A stretch of 64,000 nt of DNA from Curtobacterium salicis. GTDB lineage: Bacteria > Actinomycetota > Actinomycetes > Actinomycetales > Microbacteriaceae. The stretch is from contig NZ_JAAOYO010000003.1 in NCBI RefSeq assembly GCF_011759505.1, forward strand, positions 248,001 through 312,000. Reading direction: 5' to 3'. Positions within the stretch are counted from its first letter, which is position 1; the number at the start of each line of letters is the position of its first letter. Under the pieces are notes generated by a model that did no database searches, was not told the DNA's origin, and saw nothing but the letters and a program-made list of their open reading frames with translations. Below, one piece after another: positions 56,633 through 58,673 of the stretch. The translations under genes were made by a program, and so were the position numbers.

Positions 56633-57328
56633 ATGCGAACAGGGCAGGACATCCGGACCGATGCCGGGTCCTCGTGGTTCTTCGACGCGGGTCGGATCGC
56701 CCTGGACTTCGCGCACACCGGTGGGTTCGCGGACGACCCGGACCGCCGTCGCCCCCGCGGACACCTCGGTGAACTGCTGGCGACCCCCGCCGACCTCGAC
56801 GAGTGGCTGGGGCTGCACACCGAACCGATCGACGTCGGCGCGACCGCCCGTGAGCTGCAGGACGCCCGGGCGCTCCGGGCCGCGATCGCCCGCCTCGCCA
56901 CCGCTGCCGCCCCGGCACCGGCCGACTCCGCGGCCGAACGCACCGCGGTGGCCGCCGGACTGCGTGCCGGGACCGGACGGACCCGACCGGTGCCGGACGA
57001 CATCGACACGGTGAACCTGTTCGCCGCCCTGCCGGACGTGCCCCCGAGCCTCCCGGGTGGCCGACGTCGTGCGGGAGCGAACCGGGTGCGGCTGGCGCAG
57101 GCGCTGTCGAGCGTCGCTCGGGACGCCGTCGCCCTGCTCACCGAGGTCGGGTTCGACGACGTCGAGGCCGACGGCCGTCCCGCGCGGTTGAGCCGGTGCT
57201 CGGCGCCGGACTGCGGACTCGTCTTCTACGACTCCTCCCGCGGCGGCACACGGCGCTGGTGCTCGATGCAGCGCTGCGGCAACCGGGCCAAGGTCCGTGC
57301 CCACCGGGCCAGGCGCGCCGCGGTCTGA
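56633..57328 (+). CDS. CGNR zinc-finger protein, probable transcription regulator
   Basis: The 231-residue protein has the ABATE-like N-terminal domain (FDAGRIALDFAHTGG, about 17-31) and the C-terminal CGNR zinc finger with Cys189, Cys194, Cys210 and Cys215 (CSAPDCGLVFYD, then RRWCSMQRCGNRAKVRAHRAR). Such proteins are thought to be stress-linked regulators; the ligand is unknown. It lies 95 bases before the Mn transporter gene and could influence it, though no evidence shows that. Confidence 0.9.
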   Translation: MRTGQDIRTDAGSSWFFDAGRIALDFAHTGGFADDPDRRRPRGHLGELLATPADLDEWLGLHTEPIDVGATARELQDARALRAAIARLATAAAPAPADSAAERTAVAAGLRAGTGRTRPVPDDIDTVNLFAALPDVPPSLPGGRRRAGANRVRLAQALSSVARDAVALLTEVGFDDVEADGRPARLSRCSAPDCGLVFYDSSRGGTRRWCSMQRCGNRAKVRAHRARRAAV

Positions 57329-57385
57329 GACGACGCCCGCTCGGCCGGCGCGATCCGCGCAGATCGGACGCCCTCCCGAAAGTCT

Positions 57386-57405
57386 GGATTCGGCACGCCG
57401 AAACC
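57386..57405. promoter_or_regulatory. 20-bp inverted repeat, candidate metal-repressor operator
   Basis: Nine-base arms (57386-57394 and 57397-57405, one mismatch) around AC have a perfect TTCGGC/GCCGAA core. The repeat ends five bases before a CATGGT -10-like hexamer (57411-57416) of the NRAMP gene, so a bound protein would block the promoter. A DtxR/MntR-type repressor is the natural candidate. Confidence 0.6.
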
Positions 57406-57422
57406 TCTGGCATGGTGGGGGC

Positions 57423-58673
57423 ATGACGGACACCGCCACCCCGGTCGTCGGGCAGCGCCCTCCCGGTCGACGGGCCACGGGCCTCGGGCTCCTCGGACCG
57501 GCGTTCGTCGCGGCCATCGCCTACGTCGACCCCGGCAACGTCGCCGCCAACCTCACTGCCGGCGCCCGCTACGGGTACCTGCTGCTCTGGGTCCTGGTCG
57601 CCGCGAACGCGAGCGCCGTCGTGGTGCAGTACCTCTCCGCCAAGCTCGGCATCGTCACGGGCAGGTCCCTGCCGGAACTGCTCGGTCTGCGGATGCGCCG
57701 CGCACCACGGCTGCTGTTCTGGGCACAGGCCGAGGTCGTCGCCGCCGCCACCGACGTCGCCGAGGTGATCGGCGGCGCACTCGCCCTGCACCTGCTCTTC
57801 GGGGTCCTGCTGGTCGTCGGCGGGCTGATCACCGGCGTCGTGTCGATGGTGATCCTGCTGCTCCAGCACCACCGCGGTGCCCGGACCTTCGAGGCCGTCG
57901 TCACCGCGATGCTCGCGGTCCTGACGATCGGGTTCTGTGCGGGGCTGCTGTTCGCGCAGGTCTCCCCCGGGGCGCTCCTGGCGGGCATCGCACCGCGGTT
58001 CGCCGACTCGGGCTCGGTGCTGCTCGCCGCGTCGATGCTCGGCGCGACGGTGATGCCACACGCCGTGTACCTGCACTCCGCATTGGCCCGCGACCGGCAC
58101 GGCGACACCCCGGTCGGCCCCGAGCGCCGGCGGGTCCTCGTGGCGACGCGGTGGGACGTGGCCCTGGCGCTCGTCCTCGCCGGCGGGGTGAACATCAGCA
58201 TGCTCGTGCTCGCCGCCGCGACGCTGCAGGGGGTGTCCGGCACCGACTCGATCCCGGGAGCGCAGCACGCCATCGCCGAGAACGTCGGCCCCGTCGTCGG
58301 CGTGCTCTTCTCGGTCGGGCTGCTGGCGTCCGGTCTCGCGTCGACCTCGGTCGGTTGCATGGCCGGCGCGGAGATCATGCACGGACTGCTGCACGTGCGG
58401 GTGCCGCTCGTCGTGCGGCGCCTCGTCACGCTCGTGCCGGCGATCGTCCTGCTGGCGCTGCGGTACGACCCGACGCAGCTGCTCGTGATCAGCCAGGTGG
58501 TGCTGAGCTTCGGGATCGCGTTCGCGATCGTGCCGCTGGTGGCCTACACGTCACGGCGGAGCGTGATGGGTGACGACGTGAACGCGCTCGGCACGAAGGT
58601 GCTCGCGTGGCTGATCGCGGCGGTGATCGTCGCGCTGAACGTCGCGCTGATCGTGCTCACCGTCACGGGGTGA
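57423..58673 (+). CDS. mntH: NRAMP-family divalent metal (Mn/Fe) transporter
   Basis: NRAMP proteins import Mn(II) or Fe(II) with protons. The 416-residue protein has about 11 membrane spans, the first-helix metal site DPGN (36-39) and the sixth-helix site MPHAVYLHS near residue 210, both intact. An E/D-rich EVVAAATDVAEVIGGALAL segment follows the second block. The ATG at 57423 has a GGGGG run but no proper ribosome binding site. A candidate operator sits in the promoter. It converges on the DUF427 gene with a hairpin between. Confidence 0.92.
   Translation: MTDTATPVVGQRPPGRRATGLGLLGPAFVAAIAYVDPGNVAANLTAGARYGYLLLWVLVAANASAVVVQYLSAKLGIVTGRSLPELLGLRMRRAPRLLFWAQAEVVAAATDVAEVIGGALALHLLFGVLLVVGGLITGVVSMVILLLQHHRGARTFEAVVTAMLAVLTIGFCAGLLFAQVSPGALLAGIAPRFADSGSVLLAASMLGATVMPHAVYLHSALARDRHGDTPVGPERRRVLVATRWDVALALVLAGGVNISMLVLAAATLQGVSGTDSIPGAQHAIAENVGPVVGVLFSVGLLASGLASTSVGCMAGAEIMHGLLHVRVPLVVRRLVTLVPAIVLLALRYDPTQLLVISQVVLSFGIAFAIVPLVAYTSRRSVMGDDVNALGTKVLAWLIAAVIVALNVALIVLTVTG

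Follow-up and report, generated by a model that had tools for sequence, protein, structure and literature searches.

A predicted MntR operator at the mntH promoter of Curtobacterium salicis and a weaker related box at mntP, an exporter gene

Introduction

In Bacillus subtilis, the regulator MntR has one strong operator over the mntH promoter and weaker sites upstream of the promoter of an exporter gene, and mntH is repressed at lower manganese levels than those at which mneP is activated from the weak sites (PMC11275975). Activation of an exporter gene by MntR is described for Bacillus and mentioned in passing for E. coli (PMC11275975). Manganese- and iron-type sensors of this family can be told apart by their metal ligands: an aspartate or asparagine in place of Met10 and a glutamate in place of Cys102 mark the manganese type (PMC10317159). 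In the iron sensor IdeR, Ser37 and Pro39 contact the third base of the CCTAA repeat and Thr40 the second base; gel shifts revealed that a change of T3 to G3 in each repeat, which converts it to CCGAA, abolishes specific binding of IdeR, and replacing the second base alone by T made no significant difference (PMC8464063). A literature search on MntR in Curtobacterium or Microbacteriaceae, whose coverage did not extend to the regulon papers on Mycobacterium tuberculosis and Corynebacterium diphtheriae, returned no paper. Here, we describe a palindrome in front of the manganese importer gene mntH of Curtobacterium salicis, to which the manganese sensor MntR very probably binds.

A conserved box at the mntH promoter

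In the window, that is, the 64,000-nucleotide stretch of C. salicis DNA analysed here, a 20-bp inverted repeat (GGATTCGGCACGCCGAAACC, reading GGATTCGGC-AC-GCCGAAACC; 57386-57405, no strand assigned) precedes mntH (57423-58673, plus strand), which encodes an NRAMP manganese importer (PF01566; NF001923 above its cut-off). A first-pass annotation of this DNA had described nearly perfect nine-base arms and a gap of five bases to a -10-like hexamer, and both are found: the arms match at eight of nine positions around a 2-nt centre, and the 3' end of the repeat lies five bases before CATGGT (57411-57416) and 17 bases before the mntH ATG (57423). The hexamer belongs to an extended -10 element, TGG-CATGGT (TGGCANNNT; 57408-57416, plus strand), which presumably acts in the mntH promoter and which starts 5 nt past the box core in 43 of 49 loci of the Curtobacterium clade and 3 nt past it in the other six. 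The spacing of this element suggests that mntH transcription probably starts at or beside the ATG at 57423, giving a leaderless mRNA.

The symmetry of the repeat by itself is not significant and is unremarkable for a GC-rich window. It provides no evidence for a function, since palindromes of such size are frequent here: the window contains 36 palindromes with at least eight of nine matching arm positions, against a mean of 23.5 (sd 3.4) in 20 Markov simulations, and 43 perfect 6+2+6 palindromes, against a mean of 42.2 (sd 8.4; 20 Markov simulations). It is the conservation, not the symmetry, that makes the repeat significant. The core TTCGG-N4-CCGAA (57389-57402, plus strand; TTCGGCACGCCGAA), which from its position and its conservation in the clade and beyond is the putative mntH operator, is perfect (10/10) before mntH at all 49 Curtobacterium-clade loci examined, which correspond to 42 distinct windows after duplicates were merged and the locus studied here was counted. 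These loci comprise 19 (L018-L036) of the best 80 of 581 confirmed relatives and 30 same-genus loci obtained from a search of 40 genomes, the loci of the remaining ten genomes not being drawn from that search. Boxes were taken as the best match near the start; the invariance of the arms is thus the 10/10 result itself. The N4 centre has a mean identity of 58%, and the flanking columns -60 to -14 reach a mean of 45% and a maximum of 60%; a 10/10 match occurs in 0.1% of Markov versions of the 300-bp mntP-upstream regions of the same genomes. The longer core originally proposed, TTCGGC-AC-GCCGAA, is present in C. salicis, but its inner C...G pair is not conserved (columns 5 and 8; 52% and 76%), and the core is therefore given as TTCGG-N4-CCGAA. 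MntH relatives in the 39 other same-genus genomes are 82-98% identical, the copy in G025 being split into three pieces.

The first description of the repeat had named its absence before mntH in relatives as a counter-indication, which is not borne out: the perfect conservation in the clade is matched by a wide distribution outside it. At 61 further mntH loci of other bacteria, which make up the rest of the best 80 of 581 relatives, a scan that allowed six half-site combinations found a box of at least 9/10 at 55 loci and a 10/10 box at 43; 2.6% of Markov versions of these regions reach 9/10. Most of these boxes are TTCGG-N4-CCGAA or TTCGG-N4-CCTAA, and the boxes of Mycobacterium and Arthrobacter have CCTAA as one half. 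TTAAG-N4-CTTAA is the best match in L048, L049, L056, L065 and L081, and TTAGC-N4-GCTAA in L062 and L063. Six loci stay below 9/10 (L050, L051, L054, L057, L061 and L073). Two records look misplaced: L054, titled Curtobacterium sp. S6, has an MntR that groups with Kocuria and an mntH that is 64% identical and lacks the box, and L067, titled Sporosarcina beigongshangi, has an Arthrobacter-like mntH box.

The genome (3.49 Mb in seven contigs) contains five exact TTCGG-N4-CCGAA sites, and the reversed control pattern occurs three times. The mntH site is the only intergenic one; the other four (L003, L016, L017 and L128) lie inside reading frames judged coding by eye, that of L003 presumably encoding glycerol kinase, and were set aside as operators. 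If the flanking A/T is included and one mismatch is allowed, three sites are found (control: one), namely the mntH box, L259, a site within the opening codons of a reading frame that was set aside, and L260:259-274, located 107 bp upstream of mntP. The box is not spread over the non-coding DNA of the genome, so the random scatter that had been named as a counter-indication is not seen. A search for the repeat at other metal genes and at the gene of a DtxR/MntR regulator had also been proposed: a related box is present at mntP, but no box is found upstream of mntR in this genome, where the best match is 7/10.

A further element, absent from the first-pass annotation, lies upstream of the box. 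A CCGAA half-site (57376-57380, plus strand) is separated from the box by N8, that is, 22 bp centre-to-centre if it serves a second dimer, which corresponds to about two helical turns. Its CGAA part (57377-57380; columns -12 to -9), whose conservation is independent of the way in which the boxes were chosen, is invariant in 42 of 42 windows, and the leading C is present in 24 of 42. For a scan beyond the clade, 62 of 75 loci (the 61 wider loci and 14 box-bearing loci of the class sample described below) were reduced to 47 loci below 70% identity. A mirror half-site, read forward as TTCGG or TTAGG with at least 4/5 matches, is found at +22 in 18 of the 47 loci and at each of the other offsets from 14 to 49 in 0-6 loci; past +22, an average of 2.7 of 5 positions match in the far half, against a background of 1.5. 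On the upstream side, the signal outside the clade is weak, with reverse half-sites most often at -8 (seven loci), followed by -13 (six), -14 (five) and -15 (four); in the Curtobacterium clade, the one at -13 is invariant, as CGAA. The +22 signal could partly reflect a feature of the promoter. In three Microbacteriaceae loci (L195, L200 and L214), the -10 element is instead flanked by two full boxes with a spacing of about 27 bp, as counted by eye. The residues through which the SH3 domains of neighbouring dimers touch are conserved among manganese sensors with an SH3 domain (PMC8464063), and it is plausible that CGAA is a second half-site that aids binding of a second MntR dimer.

Co-occurrence of the box with MntR

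The strongest evidence for MntR as the predicted binder is the co-occurrence of box and regulator. Of 168 genomes sampled from the class Actinomycetia, 37, including that of C. salicis, contain mntH (E up to 1e-60), and 17 of the 36 others have an MntR orthologue (E up to 1e-28). A box of at least 9/10 precedes mntH in 14 of the 17 genomes with an MntR orthologue and in none of the 19 genomes without one, where the best match is 8/10 (Fisher p = 1.8e-7 by genome). Since the genomes are related, the count by genus is the fairer one, and it gives 7 of 9 against 0 of 10 (Fisher p = 7e-4). Three of the 17 MntR-bearing genomes (G114, G203 and G089) lack the box at mntH; in G114 and G203, a perfect box is instead located 58 and 73 bp, respectively, upstream of mntR (L227 and L226). 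The weight of the co-occurrence p-value is lowered by the genus-level test and raised by these two boxes. In one other group of 25 loci, six (L236, L237, L238, L240, L242 and L252) have a perfect box some 60-270 bp ahead of mntR, the DNA of L226 and L227 being seen again in L236 and L238, and no perfect TTCGG-N4-CCGAA was found there in the remaining 19; the boxes at the six loci suggest autoregulation or control of a divergent transporter. Among the 49 genomes that carry 50 of the best 80 mntH relatives, 48 have an MntR match, the exception being G088. In one MntR-less family, mntH has no box (L182, L183, L189, L190, L193, L198 and probably L191 and L192) and is located directly 3' of a reading frame that ends near QLVNFFESINTSYEVD, as read by eye; it may be co-transcribed with this frame and controlled otherwise.

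A weaker box at mntP

The mntP product, a manganese efflux protein, matches PF02659 with 193 bits and NF008546 with 145.8 of 214 bits. Matches to MntP were found in at least 18 of 40 same-genus genomes, which is a lower bound, the query having been an N-terminal piece (E up to 1e-15). ATTCG-N6-CGAAT is present upstream of mntP in all 18 of them. These boxes score 9/10 in 15 genomes, 8/10 in three and never 10/10, their variation is confined to the innermost base of each arm, and Markov versions of the same regions reach at least 9/10 in 2% and 8/10 in 22% of cases. Measured to the TG of the -10-like element TG[GC][CA]A[TG]GAT, the box stands at a distance of exactly 44 bp in ten genomes and of exactly 34 bp in eight. 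In the two Frigoribacterium genomes (L279 and L280), the mntP box is perfect, and its distance to this -10 element is 45 and 44 bp. Among 64 other genomes searched, MntP was found in five, all of which also have MntR, and four of the five carry an mntP box that scores 9/10 or better; L281 has none, that of L282 (9/10) lies 153 bp before the start codon and L283 has two boxes 53-72 bp before it, both arrangements being unlike that of the genus.

Activation of mntP is suggested by this geometry: a step of 10 bp keeps the helical face although the intervening bases differ, as would be the case for a protein that faces RNA polymerase. Alternatively, the mntP box might be a repressor site, a neutral site or bound by another factor, in which case there would be no dual control. 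Activation is deduced from position alone, the box is imperfect in all 18 matching genomes of the genus, the split into 44 and 34 bp may trace back to a single insertion or deletion of 10 bp, and the box is missing in L281 and arranged differently in L283. Furthermore, the element CTGAtCAGGc-TTTT, which follows the box, could belong to another protein. Against this stand both Frigoribacterium genomes, in which perfect boxes precede the shared -10 element at distances of 45 and 44 bp, and a box-to-promoter distance that is exact within each group despite differing intervening bases. We consider the absence of dual control to be unlikely, albeit with a real chance of being correct.

Two other elements were observed at mntP. 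CTGAtCAGGc-TTTT is kept in 18 genomes between the box and the -10 element (within L260:275-380), and the leader of about 50 nt contains a conserved hairpin, GAGACG-N-CGG-N-GTCTC, followed by TCTCGAAAGG near the start codon. A comparison of the leader with Rfam gave a single match, far below threshold and outside the leader, and folding 12 of 20 leaders together revealed no compensatory change in the hairpin, which is given as an observation.

MntR, IdeR and further readings of the repeat

The genome has two DtxR-family genes, one of the MntR type and one of the IdeR type. The mntR gene (L001:1297-1992) encodes a protein of 231 residues with PF01325, PF02742 and PF04023 above their cut-offs, and L002 is IdeR/DtxR, above the cut-off of its model. 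L001 has D12 and E106 where its paralogue L002 has methionine and cysteine, and its ligands are thus of the manganese type. L001 stays below the cut-offs of the curated NCBIfam MntR equivalogs (NF047407, 165.7 of 350 bits; NF008273, 84.2 of 153; NF003025, 61.2 of 138), and its name therefore rests on ligands, orthology and context. In this genome, mntR is unlinked to mntH; in several box-bearing genomes, the two genes are adjacent.

It could be argued that the box is bound by IdeR/DtxR (L002) instead of MntR and that mntH is controlled by iron. The gene is present, IdeR half-sites share size and spacing with the box, as in sites where one dimer binds two repeats that are 4 bp apart (PMC10317159), and the boxes of Mycobacterium and Arthrobacter have one CCTAA half. 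However, neither CCTAA repeats nor the 19-bp palindrome of IdeR/DtxR boxes is found at the mntH site, whose half-sites are CCGAA, the very form in which T3-to-G3 repeats lose specific IdeR binding (PMC8464063). In addition, the box tracks the MntR orthologue in the class sample, as tabulated against the presence of MntR alone. On the letters of the half-sites and the published gel shifts (PMC8464063), IdeR was rejected as the binder, and we regard control by IdeR as quite improbable.

The recognition helix provides a lead only. Positions 37-43 of L001, aligned to IdeR, read S-A-S-T-V-S-G. S39 is present in 56 of 57 assigned TTCGG-type MntR systems, the MntRs with TTAAG boxes have A39 with N or A at position 40 (6/6), and those with TTAGC boxes have A39 and T40 (2/2); L230, with P39 and a TTCGG box, is an exception. 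The argument for position 40 is weakened by the finding that a change of the second base to T is harmless for IdeR (PMC8464063). In the tree, A39 arose once and position 40 changed three times, so the correspondence of helix and box, as judged from these sequences, carries no statistical weight; statistical covariation was rejected for too few independent changes, with two independent pairs. In the underlying table, boxes were assigned by hand, 25 of 91 rows have no assigned box, L233 (a duplicate) and L177 and L169 (second paralogues) are left out, L057 (8/10) is counted as TTAAG, and L052 is counted as TTCGG despite its best score being a TTAGG match.

Very improbable is a function of the repeat as RNA, either as terminator of the upstream gene or as manganese riboswitch in an mntH leader. 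A 61-nt stretch folds with -24.8 kcal/mol (z -1.87; 9 of 200 shuffles are as good), but there is no terminator-like site and no T run, no Rfam covariance match to the manganese riboswitch yybP-ykoY or another known RNA element was found in 57000-57700 (E up to 1), and the conserved -10-like element follows only downstream of the repeat, which should therefore be absent from the mRNA; the terminator and riboswitch readings were rejected. That the palindrome is a chance product of a GC-rich genome is a practically negligible reading, the abundance of palindromes this large in the window being outweighed by the 10/10 box at 49 of 49 clade loci and its co-occurrence with the MntR orthologue.

Proposed mechanism

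The metal-sensing repressor site proposed in the first-pass annotation is the best reading of the repeat, given its conservation in the clade and beyond and the presence of the partner genes, binding being a prediction from sequence. We hold it to be highly probable that the repeat is the MntR operator at mntH, joined by a CGAA half-site that probably aids a second dimer and a weaker mntP box that probably serves activation; this reading draws on the observed conservation, co-occurrence with MntR, location, metal-ligand residues and spacing. A manganese-loaded MntR dimer would bind TTCGG-N4-CCGAA just upstream of the extended -10 element and block RNA polymerase, thereby switching mntH off before a start that is predicted to be leaderless; repression of mntH by MntR is very likely. 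The CGAA half-site two helical turns upstream would probably help a second MntR dimer to bind. As manganese rises further, MntR would probably bind the weaker mntP box and activate the exporter gene.

It is tempting to speculate further, with slightly less than even confidence, that the 231-residue MntR of Microbacteriaceae with its SH3 domain is a two-way switch: the perfect box would occlude the mntH promoter, a weaker box, placed at one of two helically phased distances with its centre near -66.5 or -56.5 relative to the predicted start, would activate mntP, and the half-site at 22 bp would be the cooperativity unit at mntH. If so, an actinobacterial MntR would activate an exporter from one box and not from an array, and the order of events, first uptake off and then export on, would be set by the inner base pairs, which are imperfect in the exporter box. 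Both the exact spacing of 44 or 34 bp at mntP and the half-site at 22 bp are matters of geometry that lend themselves to a direct check by footprint or structure. For manganese sensing in actinobacteria, this amounts to an operator code that can be tested, with manganese boxes (CCGAA) and iron boxes (CCTAA) one base per half-site apart.

Comparison with known systems

M. tuberculosis mntH is presumably a locus other than Rv2058c. Purified M. tuberculosis MntR is reported not to bind an oligonucleotide called the mntH promoter (Rv2058c; PMC11416365). This oligonucleotide does not contain TTCGG-N4-CCGAA, and the negative gel shift may not be about the real mntH box. The MntR proteins of M. tuberculosis (Rv2788) and C. 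diphtheriae are, like the one proposed here, manganese-dependent repressors of the DtxR family, and exporter activation is not mentioned in the available parts of the two sources (PMC7591249, PMC13001254). The actinobacterial IdeR/DtxR proteins belong to the same family and also use five-base half-sites, including a single-dimer site with a 4-bp spacer; however, they recognize CCTAA repeats within a 19-bp palindrome bound by two dimers (PMC10317159, PMC8464063), whereas the system described here has one core box made of CCGAA half-sites, a neighbouring half-site at 22 bp and ligands of the manganese type.

In B. subtilis, a manganese-dependent dimer of the DtxR family, as is predicted here too, is found together with an importer gene, mntH, and exporter genes, mneP and mneS (PMC11275975), and the arrangement in the genus, a strong site at the importer and a weaker one at the exporter, parallels that of B. 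subtilis (PMC11275975). The two systems differ in several respects. The B. subtilis box is different, the oligonucleotide containing TTTGCCTTAAGGAAA (PMC11416365), and so is the recognition helix; B. subtilis MntR has 142 residues, and the protein described here has 231 with a FeoA/SH3-like domain. Exporter activation in B. subtilis involves four 18-bp sites that are 1 bp apart, in contrast to one box in most genomes here, and the dimer spacing is 19 bp, in contrast to a half-site 22 bp from the mntH box (PMC11275975). The element is of a known kind, a predicted MntR operator, and the features worth testing are the half-site at 22 bp and the exporter box at its fixed distance.
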